Below are positions 1 to 30,288 of a stretch of 64,000 nt of DNA, piece after piece. Within the stretch, counting starts at the first letter, position 1. Every line of letters begins with the position of its first letter. Both the position numbers and the translations under genes were made by a program. The DNA lies in assembly GCA_025449115.1 (NCBI GenBank), contig JAHLKC010000006.1, positions 124,001 to 188,000 on the forward strand. The letters run 5' to 3'. Source of the DNA: Chytridium lagenaria. Lineage: Eukaryota; Chytridiomycota; Chytridiomycetes; Chytridiales; Chytridiaceae. The notes beneath the pieces were generated by a model that did no database searches, was not told where the DNA came from, and saw only the letters and a program-made list of their open reading frames with translations.

Positions 1-994
1 GGTTTGAATGTCTTCACGACGACAGGCGAGGGCGTTGGCCAAGGAGCCGTCAGGATTGGGGACCATGTGAATTTGATCTTTGCATACGAACTAGTAGGTG
101 TAAGTCTCACTTTTGGATGAAAATGAATACAGAAGAGCATGATGAAAGAGCATTAAATGAAGTCGTACCTTATAAACCATCTTCCCATTCTCCATTACAA
201 CAATTCCGGGACTTTGCGCATACAAGCTTATATCAGGCGGATAAGGGTTGGAAGCTCTCTGAAACCACTCTCTCCAAACCGCCCGACTCGACTCTGTATA
301 AGTCTTCATCCTATTCCCTCTCTTCACCTTCCGAAACTTTTTCAATTGGTTTGTCTTGGACTAATCATCCACCCAAAAGAGAGAAACAAAAACCGTTAAC
401 CATCCAACTTCACGTCCTATATAAAGACCTACCCAATAATTCAACTTTAAAAACAACGCCATCCTCTGATAAGTCCTTAACTGATTCCCAATCCCAAACA
501 CTCTATACGAGTTTCGACCAGGATCAAGAAACAATTCTCCAGGAGCGCTCCCAACCGTGTTCCAACGCCGACACGTCCTGAAGTCTTTTGGTCGTCATCG
601 GGATCATCGGGTGGTTGCAGCGTCCGCAACCAGTAAGCGAAACTGGTCAGGAAGACTTGGACTTCACTGAGGTTTTCATGGCAAGTGAGGAAGATGATAC
701 GAGTGTTGGTTGCGGTGAGGATGGGACGTAGATGTGCGAACAAAACAATGTAGGAGAAGCTTCAATTGGAAAAGCAAGAAGCATCAGGGAATAAATTGTG
801 AGACATGATCCTTCATTCTAATCTGCATTGCTTCACTCACCAAGTCTGACAATCAAACCTTCTCAAAAACACAATCACCAATTTCTGATCCTTCCAAAAC
901 GACGCAAGCTTCACCTTTTCCCCGTCATGTTGATCACCTCCAACCCTTCCGCCTGCGGAAGATCGAGATGAAGTGTAGCGGGAGCTGTAGCCAT
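1..994 (-). CDS. Peroxiredoxin-like/kinase fusion, copy 1 (5' part only; kinase lies beyond the left edge)
   Basis: Minus-strand gene cut by the left edge. Exon 1 (to about 841) encodes the thioredoxin-fold start, ending FLRRFDCQT. Exon 2 (from 759) begins so that the junction makes CQTC, a CxxC motif. Further family landmarks are FLTCHENLSEV, the GELFLDPGR region, and QSPGIVVMENGKMVYK in exon 3. The last visible segment (about 90-1) reads FVCKDQIHMVPNPDGSLANA, homologous to the linker that precedes the kinase in copies 2 and 3. The kinase itself is therefore inferred, not seen. Two one-base deletions are needed for continuity: in the G run near 927 and near 548. The start at 994 assumes the first correction; an ATG at 1068 in another frame is the alternative. 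The domain resembles the AhpC/TSA_2 (PRXL2) family. Confidence 0.7.
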
Positions 995-1547
995 AGCCCC
1001 TGGTCCTTTGCTCCCCCGTCATCAGGTGAGGGTGCTACTCTTCGCTGCGCATGGACTTCAGAGGACATGATTATAAGAGATTTACAATGAGAGGTGGTAA
1101 TGGTCAGTTTTATTTAATTTCCTCAAATGTTGATTTACCGAGAGAGCGTTTAAAAGGGGGTTAAGTGTTCATTGGATGACCTTATAGACGAGGTTCGTAA
1201 AAGGGGATCTGCCGTAAGCGCCGCTTAACTTTTTATTTAGTGGTTAAGAGAAAAAGTCATTTTGAGATAGAAGCTGACGATCAATCTCTTCTTATGTTTT
1301 TGGATATTTAAATTTAAGATTGAGGTATGTGAAATATATATTGGATTGAGTGGGCAATTTTAGAGCGAGCCGATAAGCTATTCCCGTGATAACACACATG
1401 AAAATCGATATTCCAATTTTCCAGAGTTCATTTCATTATGTAAATACTATTAGTAAATACGTGCATTTTTTCAATACTACTCTCATTGCGATAAAGACTA
1501 TTATCTTTTCAACAGTATGGCAGGTGGGCTTATTCCGTTTTTCAACA

Positions 1548-3492: not shown

Positions 3493-6400
3493 ATGACAAA
3501 GCACAAGGTCAAGAGGCCCACCGCGGAAGAGCTCAAAGCAGAGGAACCCCTTCCTAACTTTCACTTTCTCACCTCTGAAGATGCAGTATCCCACTTTCAC
3601 TCAAGTAAGTATTTGCTTCTCCATCCATCGATCCACCATCCCTCAGTAAGCACCTAGTACACCTCCACTTTCATCATTAGTCCCACCCATTCCCGAAGCA
3701 CACCTCCATCCTCCCTCCTATCATCCTCCACTCTCACATTATAAAAACCTTGTTTTGATAACTGGACAAACACTCGTTTGTAGGTTTGTCGATTTCGATC
3801 TCTTCAAACTGCAAAAGGAAATTTTCGCACGCTCACCCCCCTCACTCTCCCGATCCACACATTTAACCCATCCACCCTTGTACTTTGCAGACGCCGACAA
3901 GGGCCTCACCACAGCCGTCATTAATGAACGTCTCGAAAAATACGGCCCCAATGAACTCTTTGGAGATGCCGGCGTATCAGTCTGGAGAGTTCTTTTTGCC
4001 AACACATTCAACTCTATGAATGCCGTTCTCGTCACGGCTTTTATTGTCGGAATGGCAGTGCAGGATTGGATCAAGGCGGCAGTCTTGTTGCTTGTTATTG
4101 TAACAAACTCTGGAATTGGGTTTGCTCAAGAGTACAAGTCCGAAAAGACGATGGACGCGCTTCGTAAAATGTCATCACCCACTGCTCGCGTGCTTCGTAA
4201 TAAGGACTGGGAAATTATTGCTGCTAGCGATGTTGTTCCTGGTGATATTGTTGCTTTGGAAGAAGGAGTAAGTTGATTATGTTTTAATTTTTCCGTCCCC
4301 ATGCTTTATCACGTTGCGTTTCACATTCATTTGGTTTTTTTTTAAAAAAAATGGCTTTTCTAACGCTTTTGTTTCAAGGATGTCGTCCCGGCTGACATTC
4401 GTCTTTTGGTCGCCGTGAACCTCGAGTGCGACGAAGCCCTTTTGACAGGTGAAGCCCTTCCTATCTCCAAGTTCACCCGTCCCGTCAATTCAAACGCCGG
4501 TCACGAGGACGGCCCCATCCCTCTTGGCGACCGTAAGAACTGTGTCTACCGTAACACCACCGTTTGCAAGGGCCGTGGAGTCGGTGTCGTCTTTGCCACC
4601 GGGCTTCGTTCCGAGGTTGGTAAAATCGCGATCCTCGTGTCGGCCAAGAAGGCCGGAGCAGGAAGCGTCACTGGACTTGAGAAGACACCACTTCAGGTTT
4701 CTCTTGACAGGATGATGTTCCTTTGCCTTGGTGCTGCTATTATTCTTGGGGTTGTTGTGTTTGCCGTTAACAGGTTCCAATGGGACATTGATATCTTCCT
4801 CTACGCTATTGCTGTCGGCATTGCGATTCTTCCGGAAGGTCTTCCTGCTGTCGTCACTGTGAGTATGGCTGTCGGTCTTCGTAGGATGTCGCAGCAGAAG
4901 GCTGTCATTCGTCGATTGGCTGCGTTAGAGGCGGTTGGGCAGGTTACCAACGTGTGCTCTGACAAGACTGGCACTCTTACTGAAGGCAAGATGTAAGTGA
5001 TATCACACGTCACCCTTTCTGTCTTGTTATCATAACTCATGTTCATTTTTTTGTTTTTTCCTTTTACAGGGTCGTCAAAACTGCTTGGTTTGCTGGAAAG
5101 GTCTACATTGTTGGTGGTAGGGCTCTCGAGCCTATCGGTGAAATTACTGAGGGAGAGAATCTTGTGACTCCGGAAGCTGCCGCTGACCGCTCTGCACTTC
5201 GTGAGTGTTATTTCCCATCCATTTTCATTTCATTTCCTTGATATCTTTTCCTTCAATATTTCGAATACTGACATGTTTTTGTTCCGTTTTCAGACCAAGG
5301 TTTACTCGCTTGCTCTTTGTGCATCACATCCTCCCTTTCCTTTGATGAGGAGGAGAAGCGCTGGAAGGCTACCGGAGATCCCACTGAAGTCGCTCTTCAA
5401 GTCTTTGCTGCCAAGGTCAAGTACGAGAAGGCCGGATTCGCCGCTCAGGGCTACAAGTTCTTGGCCGAATTCCCCTTTGACTCGACTATTAAGCGCATGA
5501 CGGTAGCTTACGAGGAACCCAACAAGAACATCCGATACCTCGCAAAGGGCGCCGTCGAAGGCGTTCTTGAACGTTGCACGACCTACATTGATGAAAACGA
5601 ACAAGTCGTCCCTGTCGATGAGGCGATTCAGGCTCGCGCTATTGAAGTCATGGAGGACTTTGCAGGAAGGGGATGGCGTGTTCTTGCTGTGGGCACCAAA
5701 GTCACCCCACCGAGGGACGAGAAGATGGATGAGGAGCACGCGGCTGGAACCCGGGAAGAGGCTGAATCCGAACTCACCTTCCTTGGTCTTGTTGCCATGT
5801 ATGACCCTCCTCGTCCTGAATCCCTTCCTTCTGTTCGTGAATGTCAAGGTGCTGGTATCGTCGTCCACATGGCCACCGGTGACCACCCCAAGACGGCTGA
5901 AGCTATTGCAAGGGAGGTCGGTATTCTTAGCCATGGAGACCTGCCTGGCGCGCCGCTCGTTCTCACTGCGGCCCAGTTTGATGCTATGAGTGATGAGGAG
6001 GTGGATAAATTGTCTGAGCTTCCGAGGGTGCTTGCCAGGTGCAGCCCTGAGTCGAAAGTCAGGCTTGTTGCCGCTCTTCATAGACGTAAGAAGTTTGTCG
6101 CGATGACGGGAGACGGTGTGAATGACGCCCCTGCTGTTCGTCAAGCTGATATTGGTATCGCAATGGGACAAGGAGGTTCAGATGTTACTAAACAAGCCTC
6201 CGCCATCACTCTCACCGACGACAACTTCAAGACCATCCTCGTTGCCATCCGTGAAGGTCGTCGACTTTTCTCAAACTCTAGCATCATCGCGCTCCACCTG
6301 CTTTCAGGAAACGTCTCTGAAGTTGTTGCTCTCGTCATTGGACTCGCTATTCGTGACGAGAAGGGTCATTCTGTCTTCCCCATGTCCGCTATTCAAATTC

Positions 6401-7166
6401 TCTGGCTCAACATGGTCACATCATCCCCTGTCGCTCTTGCCCTCGGCATGGAACTCGCGCCAGACGACATCATGAACTACCCGCCACGTGCCGTTGACTC
6501 GTCCATCTGGTCACGCGAGTTCATTATCGACAATCTCTTTTACGGTATCGTCATGGGGACGTTCTCGCTCGGTTGTTCCTTCTCCAGACCAGCGTCACGT
6601 TTAACGGAAATCTTGCCGCCCTTCCTACTGGATGTAACAAAAGATACGAGGAGAAATGCGATCCTACGTTCAGAGCACGTGGGATGGCTTTCTATTCTCT
6701 TTCGCTGTTGCTTCTTGTTCATGGTTTCAACTGCAGACATGTGAGGTTATCCATGTTCCGTCGTAAACAGGTGCAGAACAAGTACCTTTGGTTTGCTGTT
6801 CTCCTCGGTCTTTTCGTTACAGTTCCATCAGCGTACATTCCTGTGATTGACACTGCCGTCTTCAACCAGCTTGGTTTCACGTGAGTTATTCGTTTCCTCC
6901 ATCTTTTTTCCGTTTATATATTTCCCTACGAAATACTCACCGTATTTACTTTTTCTTTTAGTTGGGGCTGGGGTTTCATCATTGGTCAACTCTTTGCCTT
7001 TGTCGCCGTTTCGGAACTCTACAAACTTTTCAAGCGCAATGTCTGGTTCAGGAATGAGGTCAACAACATGATCACACTCCCCGATGCTGGGTTCTTGAAA
7101 TCCGATACCGTTCAGACTATCCAAACCGTTAACACAGCCACCGATTTGGTGTCAAAGAAGGTTTAG
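3493..7166 (+). CDS. ENA-type (P2D) alkali-cation P-type ATPase
   Basis: Predicted Na+/K+ efflux pump of the plasma membrane or an endomembrane, fungal ENA/ACU type. Exons: 3493-3604, 3891-4267, 4379-4992, 5070-5200, 5294-6880, 6962-7166; all introns are GT-AG. Visible motifs in order: a short cytosolic N-terminus; GFAQEYKSEKTMDALRKMSS, typical of ENA; TGEALP of the actuator; PEGLPAVVT in M4; [13 protein letters not shown] with the phosphorylated Asp; TGDHPKTAEA; MTGDGVNDAPAVRQADIGIA in the hinge; DDNFKTIL; and several C-terminal membrane segments. Near 6575-6577 the frame breaks: one base (probably T) is missing, after which FLLQTSVTFNG continues the ENA-like C-terminal domain. The start gives a normal short N-terminus directly ahead of the first P-type homology. 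The gene lies between two peroxiredoxin-kinase copies on the other strand. Confidence 0.9.
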
Positions 7167-8064: not shown

Positions 8065-10357
8065 CTAATCGGCGGGAACAGTCAACAGCTTCAGCTCCTT
8101 TCCGATTTTAGCAAAATCGGGTCGTGACTTTGCATTCTGAGACCAACAAGCATTCACAAGCTTCTGAAACCCTTTGTTCCACCCAAAAGCTGGTACCGTC
8201 AACCTCCTCCCCTCCAAAATACTATCCTGAATAGAATGATGCGAGACTCCCCTCCACGGAGTTTTCCGCGTCGCCACCTCCCACATCACCACCGCAAACG
8301 CAAACACATCCATCTTGGTTGTTGGCTTTTGTCCAAGTATTTGCTCTGGTGACATCCACTGAACAGTTCCACCATGTGCATCCTCATCATCTTCATCATC
8401 ATCTTCATCCTCGTCGTCATCATCACCATCCCCAACTGCTTCGTCGTCACCATTGTTTCCTAAAGGCCCGGAAGATCCCGTCACCATCATATTGCTTTCG
8501 CCAGCCTGTCCGTTCCCCCTCCCCTTCTTCTTTCTTCTCTTTCTACTCTTTTTCTTGTTCTTTGTCGCCCGGGTCTGCATTCTCAACGCCCGCGCGATGC
8601 CAAAGTCCGACACCTTGACCGTCCAATCCTCTGACACGAGAATATTTAGACTCTTCAAATCCTGGTGAATAATCATCGGTGTACATGTATGAAGGTAATT
8701 CATGCCCCACACCGTCCCCAACAAAAACTCCTTCCGTTTAGCCTCATCCAACTGTATAGATGGATTCGCAAGTAAATTAAATAACGACCCTCGCGACATA
8801 AGTTCCGTGATCAAAAAATGTCTTGGAGGACGATTCCCAAATCCCACAAACGGGATCACATTCAAATGTCTCATCGACATCAAAATCGCCGCCTCATTCG
8901 CAAACGACTTTAACCCTTCCCCAATCTTGGTCTTCCCAAACCCAGCCACCTTTGTCGAAGCTCCCATCCCATCCTCCCCAAACTCATCACTTTCCGTATC
9001 CTCCATCTTGAAAAACTTGACCGCCACTTTTGAACCCATCCATTCGCAACTGTACACCTCGGATTCTCGACCTTGACCAAGACGCTTGATGATTTTAAAC
9101 TCGTCAGGTCGAACGTCCCCAAGCTTATCCATGTTGTCGAGGGCTTTTGAGAAATCGCGGAGACCTTCGTTGACTGTTTCGTCTAGAAGCTCTGTTCCAG
9201 GAATGGGGCAGGCAAGGGCTTCCGCTAGTTTCGTGTTGGGGTCCGTGGGGATTGTGTTTAGCTGATCGCGGCATACATACTGTTGTTGCGTTTTCACCGA
9301 GGTATAAGGAATAAAGTGATTAAAACGTTAGAATAATTAAATAGGCTTAAGTTTGAATTTTTAGGGTCTCCAATGGAACCAGAAATTCAAATCACAAAGT
9401 ATGTGTGAGAGAACTAGTACGAAAGAGCGGCAATTGGCAAGAAGAGTTTATTGCTTACCCTATAGAGAAGTTTATCATTTTCCACAACAGCCACTCCAGG
9501 ACTCTGCTTCCATGGCTCAGGATCAGGCCCTTTGAAAAAAACTGCAGAATTGCCCCACAGCCTTCGTCTTGTATCTAAATATAAATACCATTTGCCGACT
9601 TTGTCAATGTCTCGTTTCGGTTTCTTCCTCATAACGCCAGAGTAATACTGCTCAAAAGCATTAGATGTTGAAGTTTCAATAATTAAAAGGAAAATTCATA
9701 GAACTGTTTGTGATTCTTACCCAGTAATAACACAACAAAACCAAGAATTTTCGTTGGGGTACTTTAAGTATTGGAGTAATCCCAAAGTACCTGTAAGCCT
9801 GTCGGTCAGGGTCAAGGTACAGTTCTCCTGGAAGAGCACCGCTGACCGCTGACGCGTCATCTGCGTCCCCGCCATAACGACTTGCATCGGCTTCGATTTT
9901 GCGTAGCCAGAATCCAAAGGCGACGAGGAAGGTGTTGACCTCTGTGAGATCGCTGTGACAGGTGAGGAAGACCAGACGGACATTGCCCTTTTTCAAAATA
10001 GGCTTGAGGTGGGCGAATAGGATGATGTAGGTAAGGCTAAAACGATTTTAGAACAGTTTGAAAAGGTGATTATAATATTTTTTCCACGAGTTTACAACAT
10101 TCTTATATGAGAAACGTGAAAGAATGCTATTTTGGAGAACAGATATCGAAGTATGCTTACCAGGTTTGGCATTCGAAACGTCGTAGAAAAACTATCACGA
10201 CTTTTCTATCTTTCCACAGATCGGCCAACTTCACCGACTCCCTCGAAAGACTCATCACATGAACATCATCCTTTTTCGACCAGTCTATGTTCGGAAATCC
10301 ATCATGGAGTATCTGGACCGACGGGCCCTCCACCGGCTCAACCTTTCTCGACACCAT
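8065..10357 (-). CDS. Peroxiredoxin-like (AhpC/TSA_2) domain fused to a TKL-like protein kinase, copy 2 (intact)
   Basis: Four exons (10357-10161, 10036-9721, 9647-9459, 9279-8065) give 1917 nt and 638 aa with no frameshift. Residues 1 to about 235 form the peroxiredoxin-like 2 domain: VVIVFLRRFECQTC with the CxxC split over the exon 1/2 junction, FLTCHSDLTEV, GALPGELYLDPDRQAYRYFG, and QSPGVAVVENDKLLYR. A linker (YVCRDQ...EALAC...ELLDETV) follows. The kinase spans about 285-638: GQGRESEVYSCEW glycine loop, VAVKFF lysine, IIHQDLKSLN catalytic loop (HQD instead of HRD), SDFG metal site, WMSPEQ for APE, and DVFAFAVVMWEVATRKTPW. A basic then acidic insert of about 65 residues lies in the activation segment. 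A thiol-redox-regulated signalling kinase is inference. No known family with this fusion comes to mind. Confidence 0.85.
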
Positions 10358-10957: not shown

Positions 10958-13911
10958 TCAAGCAGGAACTACAGAGTTTGTTAACGCCTTCAAGATGTAC
11001 CTAAAGTCTGGTCTATGCTTTGGATTCTGCGCCCAACACGTATTGATTAATTTCTTAATCCCGGACTCCAATTCGCCCAATGGTCAACCTCTTCCCAGAC
11101 CTCACATTATCCTCCACCTGTGACGCTGTCACATTCCTCCAAGGTCTCTCCCTCGACGCGACCTCCCACATAATGACCGCAAACGCAAACACGTCCATCT
11201 TTGTGGTTGGACTCCCCTCAAACATCATATGTTCAGGTGACATCCATTGCGGTGTTCCGCCCGCGATTCCATCATCTTCGTCGTCCGCAGTAATTCCAGT
11301 TTCATTCCCACCTGTGTTGCGTTGACGCGTTTTTTTGGCATGGGCGATACCGAAATCAGACACTTTCAGCGTCCAGTCTTCCGCCACGAGAAGATTCAAA
11401 CTTTTTAAATCTTGATGAACCACCAACGGCGTACAGGAATGAAGGAACGCCATCCCCTTGGCGGTGTCAAGAAGGAACCCTTTTTTCTCGCTGGGTCCAT
11501 TTCAACACTCGTGTCCCCCAAAAGTTGAAACAAAGAACCTCTCGGCATCAACTCCATGATCAAAAACTGATGAGGCGGCCGACTTCCAAACCCCAAGAAC
11601 GGGATAACATTAGGATGTTTCAAAGACATCAGGATAGCCGCCTCATTAGCAAAAGATTTTATCCCTTGATCAATCTGATCAGCCCCACGTTCATCTTTCT
11701 GAGTCGTCCCTTCAATCCTGAAAAACTTGACGGCAACTTTCACACCCATCCATGATGAACTGAACACTTCGGATTCTTTCCCTTTCCCAAGCCGGCTCAC
11801 TAGCTTCAGATTCTCGGCTTTTTGGGGACCGGATTTTGTGGATCATCCATGAGTTCGGCGAAATGGCGAAGTCCCAGAGTTACTTTTTCGTCAAGAAGTT
11901 CGACCTCTGGGGCTTGACAGGCTAATGCGTTGGCGAGATTGTTGTTGGAGTTGTTCGGTACGGGTTGTATTGGTCTGTTGAGATATACTATAAAATATTG
12001 TGTTATTACCAACTTGTATAATAGTAACCGGAAGGATTGAAAATATGGCTTAAAAAAAAGAGGGAAGGACTAAATGAAAAAAAGTTGGCTTGTGATTACG
12101 CCTCGCGTTTCGCAAAACACTCTGCATATTTTTAGCGTTGCGAATTTTAGAAGGAGAAAGGAGGAAAGACTAAAGAGGGAAATCCAATCTACGATGTCGT
12201 AACGGGAGTTTTCTGCAAGGCGGTGCCAGATTCACGAAAATTGGAGAAAGCTGATAGGATGTAGGTGCATAAAGACGGCATCACGAAAAAACGGTGAGGG
12301 AATGTTAGGGGTATTCGTGTAGTAAACGGAACTCAAATTTAAGGATTAACCAAAGTTAGTGAAAAGAACCATAACCCAAATATTACGGTTTTTGTGAATG
12401 GAGACGGCATCACGAAAACCAGTGGGAGGGATCAGAGGAGGAAGGGAGCAAGATTTAGTTGTATGAAATGGAAATATTACAAGGGGCGTTGGCGTTACGA
12501 AAAAAAGTTTGTTGGAAAGTAAATTTGCATGGTTACATAAATCAGTTTTTCCAAAAATAATAATAGTGAGTTATCAAGACAAATGCTCTAACATGTTCAC
12601 TGGTGATAATGACTTACCCTATACACTACATGGTCTTTTTCCACTACAATGATACCAGGAGTCTGTCTCCAAACTTCCTTTTTTTTCGGAATCTTGATCC
12701 ATGAGAGTAAGAATCGATAGAGTATCCGCCGAGTGTAGATGTACGTGTTAAGACGATTCTTTTTGTTAACGTTATGTTTCTTGCCGTAGAGTCCGAACAT
12801 GGCCTTTTAGTGAAACATTATAACAGCGGAGGATTTAATTACAAGTAAGTAAAGGATTAGTTTGAAAGCAAGTTAGAAGAAGACAAGGGAATCTGGGGAT
12901 ATCAATCAGAGTTGGGAAGGTCCAACAAAGACGCATTTCAATATAAAAACTGTAACTCAAAACAAATGGGTGGGGGAGTAATTAGCCATCATCTTGTTTT
13001 TGAGACTTCATGCTTTTCAAACGTGAAAATTTCAAGTCACTCGACTTTGAAACACTCGCCTCCTTTGAATTCTTTCCCACCCATTAAGACATGCGCCCAT
13101 CACCTCAACTCTTGGCCCTCAAACGGTACATATCTAATCCGCCACTGACAACAACAGATGATCTAGTGACGATTGAGTTTCACTTTTTGCCATCATTGAC
13201 CTTTGCCGTATTTGGAAAAATGAAACAAGTGGAAGATGATAAATGATGAAGAATGGTTTTGAAACAACGCACCCAGTAATGAAATAAGCCAAAGAAGAAA
13301 AAACTGTCAGTGATTTGTCGTTGAATAGGAGCAATCCCAAAAAATCGATAGACTGATCGGTCCATGTCCACATAAAGCTCGCCAGGGAGTGCTCCTGTCC
13401 ATTGGGTCTTGTCCTTTGCAGCGAGCGCGGGAGAGTCAACTGCTCCAGGACCTGTTCTTTTATCTGTTTGGTCCTTGAGTTTTTGCAGCCAGAAGGCAAA
13501 GGTGACAAGGAACGTGTTGACTTCGGAAAGGTCATTGTGGCAGGTGAGGAAGATTAGACGGACATTTGATCGTGATAAGATGGGTTGGAGATGTGCAAAC
13601 ATGATGATGTAGGATAGACTGTTGGTTGAAAAAACATCAATACAAAGACCCCAGTGACACTTTGCCCGACGGGAGAGCTCTCACCATGTTTGGCACTCAA
13701 AACGACGTAGAAACATAAAGACAACTCGTCCGTCCTTCCAGAGGTCCATAAGACGAATGGGCTCACCTCCCACGGTAAAAACCTGGAGTGCCTCGACTCT
13801 AGGCCAGTCCACTTTAGGATACCCATCCTTGAGATCCTGGACCTTTCGAGTATCTCCCGAAGTGTCCACGTCAGCGGCAGGGCCGACCCGTTTAGGCTTG
13901 GAGGAGACCAT
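10958..13911 (-). CDS. Peroxiredoxin-like/TKL-like kinase fusion, copy 3 (kinase exon frameshifted)
   Basis: Same design as copy 2. Exons 1-3 (13911-13685, 13618-13273, 12803-12618) are open: FLRRFECQTC with CxxC across the junction, FLTCHNDLSEV, GALPGELYVDMDRSVYRFFG, and TPGIIVVEKDHVVYR. Exon 4 starts with YISTDQ near 11987 and carries the linker and kinase: LGKGKESEVFSSSWMG, VAVKFF, LVVHQDLKSLN (HQD again), SDFG, WMSPEH, and the C-lobe CWAQNPKHRPDF, ending at 10958. Exon 4 needs four one-base corrections: near 11975, near 11815, at the T6 run 11481-11486 (one base short), and near 11078 (one extra G). It lacks the long activation-segment insert of copy 2. It is either a decaying kinase domain or a consensus with indel errors. 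Confidence 0.75.
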
Positions 13912-15355: not shown

Positions 15356-18300
15356 ATGACGGACGCTGAAAAGTTGGCTATCCAGACGGACGTTGTCCAG
15401 GTCGTGGATGCCGACAAGCCTGTCGCAAAAGGCGTCTCCTCCTCTGGTCCTTTCGACTTCACCGCCGAAGATCTTGTGGAGTTGATCGACCCCGTCAAGG
15501 ACCCTTTCAAGCTTGCCAACATGGGTGGAGTAAACGCCATCCTCAAAGGCTTGAAGGTGGATGCTGAGATTGGTCTCGTTAGCTCAGGGAAGGGCCAGGA
15601 AGACATTCCTCTTTCTGTCCGCGAGTCCGCCTTTGGCCCCAACGTTCTACCTGCTGTCAAGCCGAAATCGCTCTTTTTCTGTAGGTTATTTTTTATCATG
15701 ATCAATCTTTACTACTTTTAAATGCACAAAGCATATCAGAAACGCCGTTTTATCTATTTCTTTTCCCTCTCTAACGAATGCTTGTGTATATTTGCTAACC
15801 ATTCATTTTTCCGTCTCTTACTACATCACCTCTGGTATTTACATTGACTCGTACACTATCGCCACCTGCTTTTTTTACGTCAACTCTAATCCGATTCCAT
15901 TCGGGAATTGGTTCCCTACCTCTTTTCTTATCACCAAACAACCATAAATATCCCCTTTTTTCCTTCTTCTGTATGACGTTACACCAACACCATTATTATT
16001 TCTATTTTTAATTTTTCCATCCTTTCTAAAAACTTTTTCCGAAATTGCTATTCTGGTCATGTTATTTTTTTATCCTCACTCATCAAAACCAGTCATTCTA
16101 CGTGCATTTGAGGACAAGATTTTGGTAAGTTATTCAAGGTTTATTACTTGCCATTCAATTCTGTTCCCACGCTAGAGTATTGCATTTCACTTGCATTCAT
16201 ACGCGTCTCCTTTTTTTTCACGTCAAGGACTCACTTTTTATTTTTATTTTACCTTTTTAGATTCTTTTGACTGTTGCTGCATTCGTCGCTCTTGGTGTCG
16301 GTCTTTACGTCGACTTCAAAGAGACACCAGCAGACAAGGCAAAGACCCATTGGATTGAAGGTTTTGCCATCATTGTCGCTGTCATCATTGTCGTTCTCGC
16401 TGGTTCTATCAATGACTTCAACAAGGAAAAGGCTTTCCAAAAGCTCAACGCCAAGAAGGAGGATCGTAAGGTTAAGGCTCTTCGTGATGGAAAGACTCAG
16501 CTCGTTTCCATTTATGCCGTCCTTGTCGGTGACATTCTTCTTCTCGAGCCTGGAGACATTATTGGTGCTGATGGTGTCTACATTTCCGGTATGGGTCTCC
16601 GTTGCGACGAGTCTGCCGCGACTGGTGAAACCGATGCCATCAAGAAGGGCGAGGACAGCGACCCCTTCCTTCTCTCTGGTAGCAAAGTTCAGGAAGGTAT
16701 TGGAAAATACATCGTCACCGGTGTTGGAGTTCACTCCTTCCACGGCAAGACTATGATGGCGCTTCGTACCGAAGATGAGGACACTCCCCTCCAGGTTAAG
16801 CTCGACGGTCTCGCTGAGCGTATTGCCAAGCTCGGTTCTGCCGCTGCCATCATCATGTAAGCAGTCTCGACACCTTTTTCATTTGCTGTTAAACTTACGA
16901 TGCTTTTTTCTTCACAGGTTCGTCGTTCTCTTCCTGAAGTACATTATTGTTGTTCTTCGAGGAAGCGGTTTTGGAAATGATCGTGAAGAGCAAGAGTCTG
17001 GCTCTGAAATTGTATCCCAAATCATCAAGATCGTTATTGGTGCCATTACGGTCATTGTCGTCGCCGTGCCTGAGGGTCTTCCCCTCGCCGTCACTCTTGC
17101 CCTCGCCTTCGCCACCACTCGTATGATCAAGGACAACAACCTTGTCCGTGTGCTCAGTGCATGCGAGACGATGGGTAACGCCACCACCATTTGCTCTGAC
17201 AAGACTGGTACCCTGACCCAGAACAAGATGACTGTCGTCACTGGTGTGATCGGGAAGAACGTTCTCTTCCAGGATGTTGACGAGATTGCGGGACTCGAGC
17301 AAAAGCTTGCTTCCCTCGCCTCGTCTGGGGATGGCTCGAACGGCCGTAAGGACGTTCTTCTCCCTCCCCGAAGCAATGGTGGCAAGATGGACGGGCCCTC
17401 AGCTGACGTCGTCTTTGAGCGTGTTATGGAAGGTGTTGCAATCAACTCTTCTGCCTTCGAGGGTGTCGACGAGGTGACTGGCGAAGCCTCCCTCATTGGC
17501 TCTAAGACTGAGACTGCTCTTCTTGAGTGGTGCACGGGTGCTGGAAAGGACTGGAAGCAGATTCGTACCGCTACCCCTGGCCTGTCTGTTGTTCAAATCT
17601 ACCCGTTCTCATCTGAAAGGAAGCGCATGTCTACCATTGTCAAGATTGAGCGTGAAGGCCAAGCCCCCATCTACCGTATTCACGTCAAGGGTGCTTCTGA
17701 GATTGTTCTCCAAGACTGTGACCGTGCCGTTCTCCTTCCCTTCAGCTCGTCGCCTAACGCCATTGCCGCCAGCGACAAGAACCCCCACGCTTCTGGACGC
17801 AAGCCCATTTCTGTCATCCCCACTCCTGGTTCCAGATCTAACCCTACCGCTCCCATTGTCTACCCTGTTGACCAGAAGCTCATTGAGGACTACAACGAGA
17901 TCATTAACCGTTTCGCTGAGGCTACCCCCGTACTATCTGTATTGCGTACCGTGACTTCACCGAAGAAGAGTTCCGTGCTGTCCTCAACGGTAGCGTCCGT
18001 GAAAACTACCTCGCATCCAAGAAGGCGGAGCGCGAATTGGCTAGGAAGGAGTCTGATGCTCACGAGGGTGTTCTCTACGACCCTGTTCAGGCTGCTCCCT
18101 TGACTCCTATTTCACCTAACGCCAAGATGGAGCTCCCCATTCCGGTACTGGCGCCACTCTTGGCGTCGGCGATGCCGTCGCTGGCACCTCTGGCTACGCA
18201 GGCTCTGACGTGCACTCCTTCGCCACCGGCAGCACCGACGATGACGAGCCCAGTGAGGCTGATCTCCTTGCCCACAGCTCTGCGCTTGAGGCGTTCACCT

Positions 18301-19868
18301 GCAAAGGCCTCGTTTGCGCTGCGATTGTTGGTATTGAAGACCCTCTTCGCGCTGGTGTCCCTGAAGCCGTCGAGGCTTGCAAGGGTGCTGGTGTCTTCGT
18401 CCGTATGGTTACTGGTGACAACGTCTTGACTGCTCGTTCCATTGCTGAGCGTTGTGGTATTCACACCAAGGGTGGTCTCGTCATGGAGGGTACCGTCTTC
18501 CGTCGCATGTCTGAGGAGGAGAGGAAGGCAATCCTTCCCCGCCTTCAGGTTCTTGCTCGTTCCTCGCCTACCGACAAGCAGCTTCTCGTCCAAGGTCTTA
18601 AGGAGCTTGGCGAGACTGTTGCTGTCACTGGTGACGGTACCAACGATGGACCTGCTCTTAAGCTCGCAGACATTGGTTTCTCTATGGGTATCGCTGGTAC
18701 TGAGGTTGCCAAGGAGGCCTCGTCCATTATTCTTATGGACGACTCCTTCTCGTCTGTCGTCTCTGCTATTATGTGGGGAAGGTCCGTCAACGACTCTGTC
18801 CGCAAGTTCCTCCAGTTCCAGCTTTCGGTTAACATTTCTGCTGTTGCTATCACGTTCATCTCTGCCGTCCTTGACTCTGGTGAGAGCTCTGTGCTCACAG
18901 CGGTTCAGCTTCTTTGGGTTAACTTGATCATGGACTCTCTTGCTGCCCTTGCCCTTGCCACTGAGCGCCCTACTCCTGAACTCCTCAACCGCCCTCCTAC
19001 CTCCAAGAAAGCCAAGCTTATCTCTATCACCATGTGGAAGATGATTTTCGGTCAGTCTGTCCTTCAAATCGCTGTCAACTTGACCCTCTTGGTAAGTTTT
19101 TCTCCCCAGAACACTTCATGCTTCCCTTTTTTTTTGACTTAAATTGACTGACACGTTTTTCGCTCTAGTTCGGTGGACCCACTTTGTTCAACTTCAAGGC
19201 ACTTGCTGATGCTGGTGGTATGATGGGTTTCAACGAGAAGGTCAACAACCCCCAAGCCAAGCTTGAGAAGGAGCTCGTTCGTACCATTGTTTTCAACACC
19301 TTCGTCATGATGCAGATCTTCAACATGGTCAAGTGAGTATAATTCTTAATTATCATTCTTCACTTCGTATTTATATTGAGAGTCTTCCATCTAACTGATG
19401 TTTTTCTTTAGCTGTCGTCGTATTGACAACAAGCTCAACGTCTTCAAGCGTTTGTTCACCAACGCCTACTTTTACCTTATCTTCCTCGGAGTTGCTGTCA
19501 CCCAATTCATTGTCGTTCAATACGGCACTGTTGTCTTCAACACTACCATCCTCAACGTGCAATACTGGGCCGTCTGTGTTATTATTGGAGCCATCTCCAT
19601 TCCTTGGGGTGCTGTTGTCCGTCTGATCCCCGACGAGCTCTTCGAGTCTTGCTTTGGAAGGTTGTTCTTGGACGAACCCACTCCCTCCCAAGTTGCCCTT
19701 CAGGAGATTTACTTTGACGGTGCCGCCCCCACTGGCGGCGCTGCTGGTATTGCCATCCCTATTAAAGAGAGCAAGGATGGCAAGCTCAGGCACAGGATGA
19801 AGAGGATTCGTGAGAACTTCTTTAGCAAGGTTCGCGGATCTTCGAGGCGTGAGAATGCTGACGCTTAA
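15356..19868 (+). CDS. P2B-type Ca2+-transporting ATPase (PMCA/PMC1-like), copy 1
   Basis: Predicted calcium pump, vacuolar or plasma-membrane, exporting Ca2+ from the cytosol. Exons: 15356-15680, 16093-16124, 16261-16856, 16918-19091, 19169-19332, 19412-19868. Motifs: [12 protein letters not shown] in the N-terminal region; [19 protein letters not shown] in the actuator; [19 protein letters not shown] in M4; [13 protein letters not shown] with the phosphorylated Asp; [42 protein letters not shown]; and [20 protein letters not shown] in M6. Two one-base deletions break the frame: in a C run near 17930 (before [14 protein letters not shown]) and near 18143 (before [11 protein letters not shown]). 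The C-terminus is basic ([16 protein letters not shown]); I do not claim a calmodulin site. Copy 2 follows in tandem 1.36 kb downstream. Confidence 0.93.
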
Positions 19869-21224
19869 GTGATCTTGAACCTTTTATTTTTTGTGTTGTG
19901 TCAACCCCGTCCATGATTCTTTGGATGAACCGACCAAGTTTTCTTCCTTACGTTTGTTTTTCTCTTGTTTTCATACATATCTCTCTCTCTTGCGTGCTAC
20001 ATAGTCTCTGTTCTTCTACATAGCCCGAGAGGTGTCGATTTGACCCTCTCACTACCTTTCTTTCACTCCTCACCACCGTTAGCCTTTTTTTTGGTTGTCT
20101 TTTTATTTTTCCGTTGATGTTTGGAATCCTTTTGTGGGTTCTTGACTCCAGAAACGCTATTAAGCACCATTTCTTTAATCCGAGCCACCCCTGACCAAGA
20201 TTTTAAAAGAATAGACACTTTTTTTTCTTTGTACTTGTTCTTGGGTGTCACCCTCCTTTTTCTCTTTTGTTTCTTGGACTCGTTAATGCAGCCACCTTCC
20301 GTTTTGCCTTTTATTCCCTTTTATTTTTTTTGGTGAGGATTTTTTTTGTTTCTTTTCTGTGCCTCTTCCTATAGTGGACCCCCCCTTTTTCTCCCTCTCT
20401 TTGATATGATGCCGCGTTTGCTGGATGATGTTAGCTCTCCGTTCTCGCGATGAAAGTGTTGATGGCGACTCCTAAGTGACCTAATATTTATATGAACAGA
20501 AAAAGGCATGGTGATTCTGGGGTTTTTAGTGAGGGGTGGGAGTTCTTCAAACGTTTGATTTAGGCTGACGACCTATATGCTGTCTTGGTTTGTATGAGTG
20601 ACTTGTACGAACCAAGAAAGCTGGCGGGGTGTGCGGTGACTATCTCGGAGAAATCGAGCGAGTAAGGTGAGAGACGTGTAAACCGCATGTACAGACGGTA
20701 TTTACGTAACGTGATCAAACGCGCGCACACATCAGCTTGTAAATTGGGGAGCTACAAGAAAGACATGAGCCAGAGAGGAATGCTAGCATGAGAGTGCAGG
20801 TGTGAGGCATCACAATGGAGTTGTAGGCATGCGATCATCGTCGTTAATATTGCAAAAGGAAAAGGCCTTTTCGATAACTCAACAACTCTAATAGCAGATA
20901 AGGTTATCCTTGATTGAAATATATGTTAGCGGGAGAAATGAAATGCAGTTGGAGATCTTTCTGTAATGTCCCAATAGTTTTCGTTTAACGTTTTCTTGCT
21001 CTTTTTAAGATAAACGATTATGTATACCTGATGGTGCATCTCATATTGCCATCACCATTGAACGCAACTCTGGAAAAAATTCGTAAATCTTTTGAAGGTC
21101 GAGTGAGCACCCTAACAAGGCCGCAACACCCCCCCCCAAATCCTTCATTTTCCATTTCCACAACCAAATCCGCTCCTATTCTTCTGAAAGACCGTCAAAA
21201 AGACGGAGAAAGAAAGAAAGCGCC
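19869..21224. other. Intergenic region between the tandem Ca2+-ATPases
   Basis: About 1.36 kb holding the 3' region of copy 1 (strongly T-rich to about 20400) and the upstream region of copy 2. No coding frame or RNA gene is supported. Confidence 0.6.
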
Positions 21225-24200
21225 ATGGGCCCATCACCACTAAGTATGGATAAGTCGGACAGTGACTTTGAAATCGCCATCCCTGTCACCGACAAGCCAG
21301 GGATGTCAACGGTTGTCATCAAGGACACAGGCGCGACGGGAAGCGGTATCCCTCAAACCCACAGTGATATCTCCAACCCTTTCAATTTCACCGCACAAGA
21401 CTTGACTGAATTGATTGACCCGCACAGAGACTCGTACAAGCTTCTGATGCTTGGAGGAGTGCAGGGGATATTGAAAGGGTTGCAGGTGGATCCAGAGGTT
21501 GGACTTGTGACGACCACTGAAGATGAATTGGATCAGGCTGAGGAGGAGAGTAAGGATATGAAGAGTTCAAGGAGGAGTCTTGGGGGACTTAAGGGGAGAC
21601 GGGGGAAGGGTGTTGGAGACAAGATGTCGTCAACAGCGCATTTGGAGATTTCAAGGTCGTCGGTTATTGGAGGAGATTCATCGGCGGTTTCGAGGAGGAA
21701 AAGGAGGGAGGTGTTTGGGGCAAACGTGTTACCGGCTGTCAAGCCAAAGAGTCTCTTTCAGTGTAAGTGTAATTTTGACATAGTCATGTTTGCGTTGTCG
21801 TTATATTATTCCATTATTGTTTGTTGTTTTTTTGGTTGTGGAATATGGATCTCATATCTGACGTTTTGTTGCTTCTCTTTCCATGTCTTATCCTTGTTAC
21901 ACGTCGATACTTGGTGATGACGGCGTCATCGGATACTCGCCTCTTTTGAACACCGCCTTAAAATTGTCAACTCAGTCATGCTTCAGGCAATGGAGGACAA
22001 GATTTTGGTGAGTCATTCATGGGTGACGGTCGCTGACACTTTTTTTGCCTTTAGATCCTCTTGACGTCTGTCGCGTTCCTGTCGTTGGCTATTGGGTTGT
22101 ATCAAGATTTTAAGCCAAAGCCTGAGGACGCGTCTCCTGAGGAGAAACAAAAGATTCACTGGATTGAAGGTGGGAATATGCATGGGGTTTTTTTAAATAG
22201 AGGATTGAACGCTGACGCATTTTTATTATAGGGTTTGCTATTATCGTTGCCGTTGTTATCGTTGTGATTGCGTCGTCTGTCAATGGTAAGACTCCTTTCA
22301 TGTCGACACAATTTGCTAAAGTGGCGGCTGCTAGATTTTCAAAAGGAAAGTCAATTCAGAAAGTTGAATGCAAAGAAAGAGGACCGTAAAGTCAAGGTAA
22401 TCACCTACCTTTTATCATAAAATGATGCTAAAATACGTTGATTTCGTTTGTAGGCTATACGTGACGGAAAGACCCAACTGATTTCAATCTATGGCATTCT
22501 CGTTGGTGATATTTTGTTGCTTGAGCCTGGAGACGTTATTGCTGCTGATGGTGTATTCATCAGTGGGTCTGGACTCAGGTGTGACGAATCGGCTGCTACA
22601 GGTGAAACGGATACTATTAAGAAGGGTGAAGATCATGATCCTTTCATCGTGTCTGGTGGAAAGGTGACTGAGGGTATTGGAAAGTACGTTGTGACTGGAG
22701 TTGGAGTTCATTCCTTCTTTGGAAAAACTATGATGGGTGAGTTGGTGCAAGGACGTATCATCATCAGCTTACACATTTTTTTGATATACAGCTCTTCGAA
22801 CTGAAGATGAGGACACACCCTTACAAGTAAAGCTTGATGGGCTCGCTGAACGCATCGCTAAACTCGGAGCCGCCGTTGCTATTCTTATGTTTGTCGTCCT
22901 TCTCGTCAAGTACATCATCTCTTCGCTCCGTGGGGCTGGTTTCGGTGAAGCCAGGCCTGAACAGGAATCCGGAGCTGAAGTAGTCTCGCGTCTTGTCAAC
23001 ATTTTGATTCAGTCTATTACGATTGTTGTCGTGGCTGTCCCTGAAGGTCTTCCCCTTGCGGTGACCTTGGCGCTGGCTTACGCCACTACTCGGATGTTGA
23101 AGGACAACAACCTTGTGCGTGTGCTCAGTGCTTGCGAGACTATGGGCAATGCCACTACTATCTGCTCCGACAAGACGGGCACCTTGACGCAAAACAAGAT
23201 GACGGTTGTTACCGGTGTTGTTGGCAAGAACGTTCTATTTGAGGGAGATGATGAGGTCAAGGAGTTGGCCGCAAGGTTAAAAACACTCGCGAGCTCTCCG
23301 CTGCCGAGGTTGACGTCCCCCTTCCTTCAAGTGCAACAAGCTCCAAGCATGCTGGTCACGATGCCACTACATTGTTCGACCGTCTCATGGAAGGTGTGGC
23401 CATCAACTCGTCCGCTTTTGAAGGGAAAGATGACTCTACCGGTCAGATGACGCTCATCGGATCCAAGACCGAAACTGCCTTGCTCGAATGGTCCGTTTGC
23501 AGTGGGTACGATTGGAAAGCATTGAGAACCTCCAAGGACATTGAGACGGTTCAAATTTACCCCTTTTCGTCTGAAAGGAAACGTATGGCAACTCTTGTTA
23601 AAGTGATCGGAAAGGACGGAAAGGCAATCTACCGCATGCACGTCAAGGGAGCTTCAGAGATTGTTCTTCGCGACTGTGACCGTGTTGCGCTTTTGCCTTT
23701 CTCCACCTCGCCTACCGCTGTCGCCAATGCATCTTCCAACCCTCCGCCTACTGGGTCCACATCTCGTCCTCTTGGCACCGTCCCCCAGGCTGGTTCAAGG
23801 TCTAACCCGACGTCGCCTGTTGTGTACCCTCTGGACAAAAAGCTCATGACTGACTACAACGATATCATCAACCGCTTTGCAGAGCAGTCCCTCCGTACCA
23901 TCGCTATGGCCTACCGTGAATTCACCGAGGAGGAGTTCTTTACTCTTCTTCGTGGAACCATTCGAGACAAAGTTATTGCAGAACGCAAAGAGGAGAAGGA
24001 GAAGCAGAAGAAGGAGAAAAACACTCTCGCTAGTGAGGGTGTCATTCTTGACGTACCCACTCCTCGTCCTGCTGGACCTATGACCCCGCTGACCCCTACT
24101 GGTCCCTCGTTTCTCTCTGTTGGTGATGCCATTGGCCCTGGAAGTGAGACTCGTTCGTTTGAGACCCGCCTTGACGAGGAGGAAGACCCCTCCGACTCTG

Positions 24201-26315
24201 ATCTTCTCTCTCACGCCATCGCTTTGGACGAGCTTGCTGGAAAAGGTCTCGTGTGCGCCGGTATTGTCGGTATCGAGGACCCCCTTCGCCCTGGTGTGTC
24301 GGAGGCTGTTGCGGACTGTAAGAAGGCTGGTGTTATTGTTCGTATGGGTGACTGGAGACAACGTCCTCACTGCTCGTGCTATTGCTACAAAGTGTGGTAT
24401 CCACACAAAGGGTGGCCTTGTTATGGAGGGATCGTACTTTAGGAAGCTCACTGACGCTGAGAGGTTTTCAATGCTGCCCAACTTGCAGGTGCTTGCTAGG
24501 TCCTCTCCAACTGACAAGCAATTGCTCGTGTCCAATCTTAAGGCAATGGGTGAAACGGTTGCTGTCACTGGAGACGGAACGAATGATGGACCTGCTCTCA
24601 AAATGGCTGATATTGGTTTCTCCATGGGTATTGCTGGCACGGAAGTCGCCAAGGAGGCTTCTTCTATTATTTTGATGGATGACTCGTTCTCTAGTGTCGT
24701 TACTGCTATCGTCTGGGGACGTGGTGTTAATGATTCCGTTAAAAAGTTTTTGCAGTTCCAGCTTTCTGTTAATGTGTCTGCTGGTGAGTTTTAGCAAGTC
24801 TACCTAATTTGTTTGGTTCAATGGTATTAATGCATTGTTATTTTATAGTCGTTATAACATTTATCTCTGCCGTCCTTGACTCGGGCGAGAGCTCTGTGCT
24901 CACAGCGGTTCAGCTCCTGTGGGTCAACTTGATTATGGACACTTTGGCCGCGCTTGCCCTCGCCACCGAGAGGCCTACCCGTGAAAACTTGCTCCGCCCC
25001 CCAGAGAGCAAAAAAGCACCCTTGATCACGTTCACCATGTGGAAGATGATTGTCGGTCAAGCTTTCCTTCAAGTATCCGTTAACCTTGCTCTTTTGGTGA
25101 GTTCGATTACATATTTGCTCCATATTTTAATAAGTCAGGATGCGTATTAATTTTTTTAATTTTTTTATAATCAGTTTGCAGGGCCTTCTTTGTTCCGCTT
25201 CACAGAACTTCAAAGCGCAGGTGGTGTATTAAACGCACACAATGACCGCGGCATTATCTCGGCGCAGAAGGCTACCTTGAGGACGATTGTGTTTAACTCT
25301 TTCGTGATGATGCAGATGTTTAACCAAGTCAAGTGAGTAATTTCGCTTGCGCTTCACATATTCTTTTATATTCTGACCAATTGCACGTTTACAGCTGTCG
25401 CCGAATTGATAACAACATCAATATTATAAAGGGCATTTTTGAGAACCCTTACCTGTACTGCATCTTCTTCGGTGTCATTTTTGTTCAGGCTATCTTGGTC
25501 AACTTTGCTGGTGTCGCCTTCTCAACTGTTCCCATTTCTGGAGCCCAGTGGGCCGTGTGCTTCCTCGTTGGATTCCTTTCCATTCCTTGGGGTGTGGTTA
25601 TTCGATTGGTAAGTTCTTATAACGTATTTTTATTGTAATGAGCAATATGCTGACACCATACAACTTCTTTTTTTTTTTAGATTCCAGACGATCTACTTTC
25701 GGTTTGCTTACGCCACAGGAACGGATACGACGTTCCGAGGTCCCTCCCTGGTAGCAGTAACAGTGTCGACATGCCCCACCACCACGTCCACCACCAACAT
25801 CGCCGTGGCTCTGATGCCGACTCTGACGACTACCTCCACAATACATCACCCGGACATCGATCCAACCCTACTCAATCCAACCCAAACAATGGTGGTGCGG
25901 TTCCCGGTATCTCTGTCACGATCCCGATCGCCGATCCTTCTGGCGCCCGTGCCAATTGGGCCGCAGCCATTGAGGGTGTTCAGAGCAGCATGGAAACGTT
26001 CAAGGCGCTTCGTGGAAACGGCAGGAGGGGATCCATGTCTTTGGCTTCCAATTCGTCGCTTACTGGTCAAGGTGGTGTGTCTGGGTCTAATGGAGGGATT
26101 TGGAATGGATTCCCAAACTGCTGTGCACGCCATGACGTCGCCTCCTATGGGCCGGTCTAATCGTTTCCCTGGTGGACAGTCGCTTATGAAGGGTGGAAGG
26201 TCAAAGACGATGGAGAGCGTTCATCGAGACGGGACAAAAAACTTTTGTTTTGGATGACGGCGCTGGTGGGTCTTCCTCGAGAAGACAGAGTCAGAACGTC
26301 GGCGCTACGTTGTAA
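21225..26315 (+). CDS. P2B-type Ca2+-transporting ATPase (PMCA/PMC1-like), copy 2
   Basis: Tandem paralog of the preceding pump, in eleven exons: 21225-21762, 21976-22007, 22055-22169, 22232-22285, 22335-22396, 22454-22736, 22792-24783, 24849-25096, 25175-25332, 25395-25608, 25681-26315. It has the same motif set: [99 protein letters not shown]. Its N-terminus has a longer Ser/Arg/Lys-rich insert, and its C-terminal tail is longer, with an [10 protein letters not shown] cluster and Ser/Gly/Asn-rich sequence. Frame breaks lie near 23299 (one base missing) and 24344 (one extra G). Two more shifts in the tail would move the stop from 26160 to 26315, where a coding-like Ser/Arg-rich end is read. 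Met at 21246 is an alternative start. Confidence 0.9.
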
Positions 26316-27374: not shown

Positions 27375-30288
27375 TTAGAAGTAAAACTCTGACACGTATC
27401 CAAAGAGTTCCACAGGTGCCCCAAACGAGACCTTAACAAATCTCTCCCCCTGCACAACAACCAACCCTCCAACCTCTGTTTTACCAAACCCCCCAGCTTC
27501 AACTCCCCGCGCAGCAACCTCCAACACCTCATTCGAAAGCACGGCAGCCACCTTCTCACTCCTCGTCCCAACGGTAATATGCGGTCTCTTGTTTGCACAC
27601 TCCAAATCCGCCATTATCTTGACAGGCACGCACATGACACGATCATCAAACACCACCTCATCTACTTCCATTCGAACACGGTGGGGTAGCCGAGACCCGG
27701 TTCCTAGCCATTGATCCACAGTGTAAGGTTCATCACCTGCCACTTTGGTATCCACACCTCCTGCAAAGACTCCATCTGATGCAATGAGGTTGGAATACGT
27801 GGTGGCGAGGTGATGATGTTCTTTGACTTTTGGGACGGCCAACGTCACGTGGAACCCCTTTTTGATACGATTTTGCGATTGAAGGAGGTCCCATAATTCA
27901 CATAACGATGGATCTTGGGGACGGAGACGGGTGAAGAGGGCGTCCAGAAATTCAGTGAGAGAGTGGGAGTGGTTGATGAGGATACCGTAGTAACTGGGTG
28001 GACGCTTCTTTTTATCCTTTTTAGGGGAGGCTTTTTCGATGGAGAGTGGGGTGGATGTGGTGGGCTCCGATTTTAATGTGGAGAGGATTTGGGTGATGAT
28101 GTCGTCCGAGGGGATGTCGAGGTTGAGGGCTTCGTAGACTTGTTTGATTCTGTGGAGGGTAGTTGAGAAGGGGTCGATCGTGATGATGGCGTCGATGAGA
28201 ATGTCGTCTTTCAGGGATGGGTTTAAAGGAGTGAATTGGTTGAGGAACATGTTGACAACTCGAGCATAATCAGGGGAGTTTCGTGGTGTAAGGGTTTGAT
28301 GATTTTCTCCTCTGTTCAATAAAAATCAGTCAGATGATAATTTAAAAATAGAGTCAGTCAAACCTAATCTCTATACGACTGGTAGCAAGTTTCAGTAGTT
28401 GAGCCTTCCGATCCTGCTCATGCCATGACACGTCCCATTCCAACGCGAGAATTTTACCATTCGGATACACCGACTTGAACTTTGCCGCGAGCTCCCTCCG
28501 ATGCTGTCCCAAATGATTACATTTATCCGCATACACAACATGGCAGACTTTAAATTGCGCCATCACAGCCTCAACAAATCTCTTCTTGTAATTATCGGAC
28601 TGAATATGTCCCATGTTTGGAATCAACTCGGAGAGACACTTGCCAAGTGTTGATTTGCCTAACCCCACAATCCCAACAGGAATAATCATAATCTTGCAAG
28701 GCTCCTCTGTTGTGTCCATGGCGAGTTTGTCCGGACGTCTACCGCTGATCTTCATGGATGCCATAGAATCCCCCAATTCTTCCACAGATTTTCCGTTCTT
28801 CTTTTTAAAGTCATCCCGCTCTTCCGCGGCGTCCCCGTCATCCATGATAGTAGCTTCACCTCTCTTAAATTCCGCCGTGGTCTCCTGAGCAGCGTCGACG
28901 AGTTCCTTGGAATTATCAACTATTCCGGAATCCGCGAGAAACTGGTTCCGCGCCTTGATGATGCCTTTGTTCTGCAAATATCCGTCGAAATAACCGCGAT
29001 CGGATCGAATCTTTTCCTTGGCCCATTGAATGTACTTTCGCGTCAATTCGTGGCGTGGTTTGAATTTTTCGGCCTTGTTTGTTATAAGCATCTTGGTGAA
29101 CTCTCGCCACCTAGAGTTTGGCGATTGAATGTAAGTTGACAAAGAATTTTCTTTGAGAGGGGCAAATTATAACTTACTCTCGGTACATGAGATATGGTTG
29201 GGCGTATTTGATTTTAAAAAAGACGGTGGTGCCTTTTTCTGACTTGCAGCGGACAACAAATCCTTCGATAGCTCGTCCATTGTACGATCCAGTTTCGCCA
29301 CATTGTGACGTAAACTCCATAACCTCTGTACCGCGATAAAAGATTAAGTACAAATAGTTACAGTTATAAATAATGATGAAAACTAACCGTCAAATGTGTT
29401 GAAGCAAAGACAATCCACGAGAAAAAAGCCAAAGCGCTGAGCAAAGGAAACCAACTTTTCGTGAGGCCAGGCGACGAATTCGGGTGTGTTTTCATTAATA
29501 CCGTGAAGGTAAAGACCCCTTCTACCGACAGGATATTCCAGAATGTGTTCTTCAAAGTCGTCGTCTGCAAGCTTTTTATACAGTCGGTTCGGTCGATTAA
29601 CATTCTGGAAACAAATGCTGGAGGGAGAATGCAACCAAAGAAAAGAGAAGCACGAACAGAGAGAGATGCGATCATGCCAAAGGCAACTCACCTCAAATAC
29701 AGCAGTGACCTTGTGCTCTGTCAAAAAGTCGACGAGATCCTTTTTGGTCGCGGACGAGTTTTCGACATGTCTGTCAAGCCATTCACGACCCTTTTCAGCA
29801 TGCGGCCCGATCGAATGCTTTGACGTGACGACAATATCATTGTCAACAGCTGACAGAAAAATGATGCATCCATTCTCCTTGAGAGTCGCCTCATAAGGCC
29901 CAACAGTCCTTGTTTGAAGGTTCTCACGAGTAGTCCATTTGGTTTCGCCCACATTGAAAAACTTGTCATATCCTCTCGTCACGATCTCATACTTTCCCCC
30001 ACCTCTCACCTTCAAGCCGCCAGCCTCACGATTGCGGACAAAGAGACCGCGGGCGAGAGTGGGGAGGATGGGAGGATCTTTTGCGTAGAGATTCTCGGGA
30101 CATGTGTAGGAGGTGATGGTGACGGATGGCATATGAGGAATGTGGTGTGATGTCTTGCGGATGGATCTCTTTTTCCCTTTACCTCCACCTCCACACATGG
30201 AATCAAGTGCGGCAACAAGAGCATCTGGAGAGTCGTATTGAGCGGATGGGAAGGGATATCCTATGCCTTTCTTTTCCGACGGAGCCAT
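27375..30288 (-). CDS. TRL1: Trifunctional tRNA ligase, Trl1 type
   Basis: Joins tRNA halves after intron removal and, in fungi, the HAC1-type mRNA. Five exons: 30288-29692, 29604-29388, 29325-29178, 29110-28364, 28311-27375. The ligase domain comes first: ATLKENGCIIF with the adenylated Lys, SKHSIGPHAEKG, GLYLHGINENTP, GFVVRC, FFKIKYAQPYLMYRE. The polynucleotide-kinase domain follows, with P-loop GIVGLGKST and GHIQSDNYKKRF, ADKCNHLGQHRR, EIRGENHQT. The C-terminal 2H cyclic phosphodiesterase has two HxT motifs, HVTLAV and HITVGT. All three activities are therefore represented. The exons join in frame without corrections, unlike many neighbours. About 880 aa, normal for the family. Confidence 0.95.

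Follow-up and report, generated by a model that had tools for sequence, protein, structure and literature searches.

The 64,000-nucleotide stretch of the Chytridium lagenaria genome analysed here (the window; contig C6, positions 124001-188000, assembly of 41.9 Mb in 356 contigs) contains on its minus strand, at 8065-10357, a gene that joins a peroxiredoxin-like 2 (PRXL2)-type redox domain to a protein kinase domain in one chain. This gene, copy 2, lies between two tandem paralogs, copies 1 and 3. It has four exons (197 + 316 + 189 + 1215 = 1917 nucleotides, 638 codons, ATG to TAG) and introns of 124, 73 and 179 nucleotides, all GT-AG. The four-exon model of 1917 nucleotides given by the initial annotation proved exact: a database search with residues 1-270 as query retrieved the deposited C. 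lagenaria protein P0001, which is identical to the spliced product at 638 of 638 residues. The parts of copy 2 are as follows.

10161 to 10357, minus strand: exon 1, from the start codon to the first two bases of the Cys66 codon (spliced model).
9721 to 10036, minus strand: exon 2, PRXL2 core (spliced model).
9459 to 9647, minus strand: exon 3, which encodes the helical segment and the final strands of the PRXL2 domain (spliced model; structure elements from the predicted model).
8065 to 9279, minus strand: exon 4, end of the PRXL2 domain, linker helix, entire kinase and stop codon (single open frame).
9196 to 10300, minus strand, span including introns: PRXL2-type domain, residues 20-262 (profile and fold matches).
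10036 to 10171, minus strand, span including intron 1: CQTC redox motif, residues 63-66 (sequence).
9136 to 9195, minus strand: predicted linker helix between the two domains, residues 263-282 (predicted model, of modest confidence here).
8080 to 9114, minus strand: TKL-like protein kinase domain, residues 290-634 (Pfam, sequence and fold matches).
8659 to 8667, minus strand: HQD catalytic-loop motif (non-RD), residues 439-441 (alignment).
8374 to 8589, minus strand: long low-complexity insert in the activation segment, residues about 465-536 (alignment).

Three protein searches returned 19 distinct proteins, 17 of which carry both domains, some as truncated models; the remaining two are P0014, labelled partial, and P0017, which ends in an apparent intron. 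The both-domain proteins come from nine species: C. lagenaria, Phlyctochytrium planicorne, P. bullatum, Irineochytrium annulatum, Chytridiales sp. JEL 0842, Blyttiomyces sp. JEL0837, Dinochytrium kinnereticum, Zopfochytrium polystomum and Cladochytrium tenue. All seven genera checked in the NCBI taxonomy belong to the Chytridiomycetes. Homologs with both domains are thus present in eight species other than C. lagenaria, with the same domain order in their gene models, and together with the sequence and fold matches described below they back the earlier claim that a CxxC thioredoxin-fold domain and a full kinase form one polypeptide. A chance open frame was rejected, as homologs exist. The searches were word-limited, and the one with P0010 as query gave 4 proteins from 7925 candidates, missing relatives that the other two found; among the proteins found the family is so far restricted to chytrids, and the word limits could hide members in other lineages, such as Rhizophydiales. 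With the PRXL2 alignment as query, prokaryote genome contigs gave 47 pattern matches, none of which was confirmed, and hence no prokaryotic relative at that sensitivity. Alignment A5, on which the residue counts below are based, contains 18 of the 19 proteins; P0002 of P. planicorne (955 residues) was left out because its model joins two tandem family copies, the second of them cut short. P0002 and P0003, both from Phlyctochytrium, carry the name ‘copper transport protein ctr1’, probably through confusion with the kinase CTR1.

On the basis of profile and fold comparisons, residues 20-262 of copy 2 are well supported as a PRXL2-type domain. Copy 2 matches the Pfam Redoxin profile PF08534 (30.1 bits, cut-off 26.6). 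PF13911 matches 12 of the 18 family members at E <= 0.001, and precomputed PF13911 matches are listed for P0002, P0005, P0006, P0009, P0011 and P0018. The sole Protein Data Bank matches of the PRXL2 profile were to the human prostamide/prostaglandin F synthase PRXL2B (9us9/9usa), with which copy 2 shares 28-29% identity, the fold, the position of the CxxC, the RRFxCxxC and GELYLD motifs, and the C-terminal strands. When aligned with 9us9, the motifs around CxxC and GELYLD are co-linear, and the first CxxC cysteine and the surrounding region align with the PRXL2B active site. The 50 listed matches in a fold search with the full-length model were all kinases, so we modelled the redox domain separately. 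The best fold match of this isolated model (mean predicted local distance difference test score, pLDDT, 70.2) was PRXL2B, and the CxxC (C63/C66) stands at the N terminus of a helix, residues 64-82, as in active thioredoxin folds. Unlike copy 2, PRXL2B stands alone as a 198-residue chain with no kinase, and its segment between GELYLD and the last strands is shorter, at 30 profile positions against about 60, or approximately half the length.

The redox cysteines are conserved across the family. We found CxTC in 16 of the 16 A5 models that contain the segment, and both tandem copies within P0002 carry CQTC. In all three C. lagenaria paralogs intron 1 falls inside the codon for the second cysteine. 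P0018 and P0019, in which exon 1 is seemingly absent, read ‘HS’ right before exon 2; this may be a spelling of the splice acceptor CAC-AG/C (slash, junction), with the second cysteine intact there as well. Among the A5 rows with a residue at the position, Cys92 is kept in 18 of 18, Cys258 in 15 of 15 and Cys612 in 15 of 15, and Cys258 immediately precedes the linker helix.

The C-terminal domain of copy 2 scores 158.7 bits against the Pfam kinase profile PF07714 (cut-off 23.1). Plant CTR1 is its nearest solved kinase in both sequence and fold, and MLT/ZAK, MAP3K12 and RIPK2 are among the best sequence matches, alongside tyrosine kinases. The domain shares its kinase fold and motifs with CTR1 and MLT/ZAK-type TKL kinases (3ppz, 3p86, 5x5o), and its assignment as TKL-like is well supported, coming from these nearest solved structures rather than from a kinase-group tree. 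Lys322 (in VAVK), the helix-C Glu363, the catalytic Asp441, Asn446 and the DFG Asp459 are kept in 16 of 16 A5 kinase domains; P0004, whose model is cut short, has DLG instead of DFG. A DLKSxN motif presumably places the copy 2 kinase in the Ser/Thr substrate class. The third loop glycine is replaced by Ser, and the HRD arginine is lost in all 16 readable family kinases (Q in 12, T in two, S in one and A in one). As a control we took 30 loci from 35 matches of a kinase search in the C. lagenaria genome, 23 of them outside the cluster. The motif was seen in 19 of these 23 and reads HRD in 17, the others being HGD and HND; two of the 17 HRD loci, L034 and L037, are near-identical. CTR1 likewise has HRD in the alignment, whereas the chytrid family is non-RD, has an N-terminal PRXL2 domain and varies in its activation segment, which runs to 20-86 residues from DFG to GT-x-W-x-PE in the 15 of 16 A5 kinases where it is readable. 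In copy 2 this segment carries an insert made up of a basic run (lysine/arginine) and then a long acidic one (Asp/Glu), where CTR1 has about 10 residues; the layout is similar in P0003 and mostly different in the others.

We built separate trees for the PRXL2 and kinase domains from 16 of the 18 A5 rows, omitting P0014 and P0017, which have no kinase; copy 1 was not included. Both trees support clades of copy 2 with P. bullatum P0003 and P. planicorne P0004, of copy 3 (P0015) with P. bullatum P0005, of copies 2 and 3 together with their orthologs, of P. bullatum P0008 with D. kinnereticum P0013, of the three Blyttiomyces copies, and of the Zopfochytrium-Cladochytrium pair. They disagree on the order within the copy 2 clade and within the Blyttiomyces clade (the latter with 86/72 and 94/93 support) and on the placement of the I. 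annulatum and JEL 0842 proteins. Because the main supported clades are common to both domain trees and the position of intron 1 is common to the three C. lagenaria copies, these data suggest one fusion event followed by tandem duplication. Copy 1 is closest to P0008 among the five tblastn queries used. P0003, P0005 and P0008 are each listed on a 24,061-base contig, presumably one and the same, and the tandem array therefore probably predates the split of the genera. A query with the redox-domain protein matched only the three copy loci in the C. lagenaria genome (9 matches). The Pfam PF13911 search of that genome gave nothing, presumably because introns interrupt the match. With the kinase as query, copy 2 itself scored E = 1.1e-239, copy 1 5.8e-49 and copy 3 7.2e-35, and the best kinase elsewhere 2.3e-12.

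The two paralogs, identified by sequence comparison, differ from copy 2 in the state of their reading frames.

1 to 1015, minus strand: copy 1, tandem paralog with frame changes; the PRXL2 part lies in the window and the kinase part continues outside it to C6:122922.
10961 to 13911, minus strand: copy 3, tandem paralog that also combines both domains and has several frame changes, deposited as P0015 (513 residues).

Both shift frame within regions that copy 2 encodes in one exon each, and the NCBI model P0015 is without parts of both domains. The window also contains a P-type cation ATPase gene at 3494-7166 (plus strand), in which Cation_ATPase_C is split between two frames near 6590. The 47 bases between the matched parts are too few for an intron like those seen here, which suggests an assembly indel. 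Because this neighbouring gene is also broken, the frame breaks in copies 1 and 3 may well be assembly errors, and we set aside the notion that these copies are certain pseudogenes. Copy 2 is intact; that it alone is so may be an effect of the assembly.

Further along the window, two adjoining P-type calcium-ATPase-like genes lie at about 15356-19142 and 21096-24442 (plus strand); the first has E1-E2_ATPase and Cation_ATPase matches, and the second is similar by eye only. At 27375-30342 (minus strand), open frames in several pieces look by eye, from a motif, like a fungal tRNA ligase.

The protein thus has one reading frame, catalytic residues kept in both domains, a pairing of domains that is conserved, and a kinase that has lost the HRD arginine. 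We propose that it may be a single-chain kinase with a built-in PRXL2 sensor domain, whose redox state would switch the kinase in cis; this step is inferred, and we give it about an even chance of being correct. A peroxide, a lipid (endo)peroxide or a thioredoxin/glutathione shift would convert the Cys63/Cys66 dithiol to a disulfide, or oxidation might alternatively be relayed from this pair to the conserved Cys92 or Cys258, and the change would then be transmitted through the linker helix (residues 263-282) to the kinase. Activation-loop phosphorylation would be an unlikely switch, the kinase being non-RD and its activation segment variable. The kinase would then phosphorylate Ser/Thr substrates, like CTR1/MLK-type TKL kinases. 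The peroxide- or thiol-sensing role put forward in the initial annotation is a plausible hypothesis, which gains some weight from the conservation of the CxxC and from the kinase being non-RD. As a whole, the protein would do in cis roughly what the peroxiredoxin-ASK1 relay of animals does in trans. Prdx1 and Prdx2 are typical 2-Cys peroxiredoxins, not PRXL2 proteins, and ASK1 belongs to another kinase group. In the Prdx1/Prdx2-ASK1 relay (PMC8300624), a peroxiredoxin-fold protein controls a kinase through thiol oxidation, with two separate animal proteins in place of the one chain of chytrids. The likeness is an analogy in logic, not homology.

Several observations weigh against redox gating in cis. 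Of the Pfam domains named in the initial annotation, PF07714 is found well above its cut-off, but PF13911 scores 23.5 bits on the whole copy 2 protein and 26.4 on the domain alone, both below the cut-off of 27. The NCBIfam model NF040769 (SelL-related redox protein) is far below its cut-off of 120 in P0001 (33.5 bits), P0005 (27) and P0017 (24). Generic peroxiredoxins trail PRXL2B in the fold search by less than one Z unit, which is a tie. The conservation of Cys92 and Cys258 could be structural. The full-length model, built with 11 of the 12 relatives then in hand, has a mean pLDDT of 64.7 and a predicted template modelling score (pTM) of 0.54 and offers no trustworthy domain contact. PRXL2 proteins elsewhere are known as enzymes rather than as sensors, and non-RD kinases may be constitutively active or otherwise regulated.

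The main rival is that the PRXL2 domain acts as a functional reductase, with lipid hydroperoxides or endoperoxides as substrates as in prostamide/PGF synthase, which the kinase tunes or beside which it sits tethered at a site of oxylipin signalling, the kinase itself not being redox-gated. In its favour, the nearest relative with a solved structure is an enzyme with a CxxC that is mutated in 9usa (C44S/C47S, from its title), and the CxxC and GELYLD motifs are retained. Against it, the stretch from GELYLD to the last strands has about double the length seen in PRXL2B, and a kinase is present on 17 of the 19 proteins found, the other two being one labelled partial and one that seems to read into an intron, although a length filter and the word limits could hide stand-alone relatives. 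We consider this rival unlikely, if deserving of serious attention. It is rather unlikely that the PRXL2 domain is instead a non-catalytic docking, dimerisation or chaperone-like module, with the CxxC as a structural disulfide or metal site and the kinase governed by partners. Thioredoxin folds often serve as protein-protein modules and two more conserved cysteines could form structural bonds, yet the CxxC is placed at a helix N terminus like that of active thioredoxin folds, and its first cysteine and neighbourhood align with the PRXL2B active site. The change of HRD to HQD, HTD, HSD or HAD, the serine at the third loop glycine, and the DLG of the shortened P0004 model would fit a weak or dead kinase (a pseudokinase) in a redox-regulated scaffold; this is improbable, given that every A5 kinase domain retains the Lys, the Glu, the catalytic Asp, the Asn and the Asp of DFG and that non-RD kinases are commonly active. 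That two separate genes were wrongly joined is very unlikely, because a single open frame in exon 4 covers both PRXL2 residues 235-262 and the kinase, and the gene models of eight other species show the same order.

PRXL2 and the kinase each belong to a family already known; within the reach of our searches, their combination in one protein is new. We found no description of it in the open-licence literature, although it may be described elsewhere, and this is consistent with the initial annotation, which knew of no such family. The fungi-specific kinase lineage FslK (PMC3937382) and the fungal kinomes (PMC2838846) resemble the chytrid family as fungal kinases of the TK/TKL neighbourhood. According to PMC3937382, only 16 of 241 FslK members have additional domains, and the main text of PMC2838846 contains neither ‘redoxin’ nor ‘thioredoxin’.

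Redox control of kinases usually has to be reconstructed from the transient contacts that peroxiredoxins make with kinases as separate proteins. Given a one-chain version that has conserved cysteines and occurs in related fungi, a single purified protein and a handful of point mutants would be enough to answer whether thiol oxidation of a peroxiredoxin-fold domain can switch a kinase directly. The fusion also gives PRXL2 a new domain partner. More tentatively, and with somewhat less than even confidence, we suggest that these proteins may be chytrid-specific redox-receptor kinases, in which a prostaglandin F synthase-like domain would sense peroxides or lipid endoperoxides and switch a non-RD kinase in cis, possibly for oxidative or oxylipin cues to zoospores.
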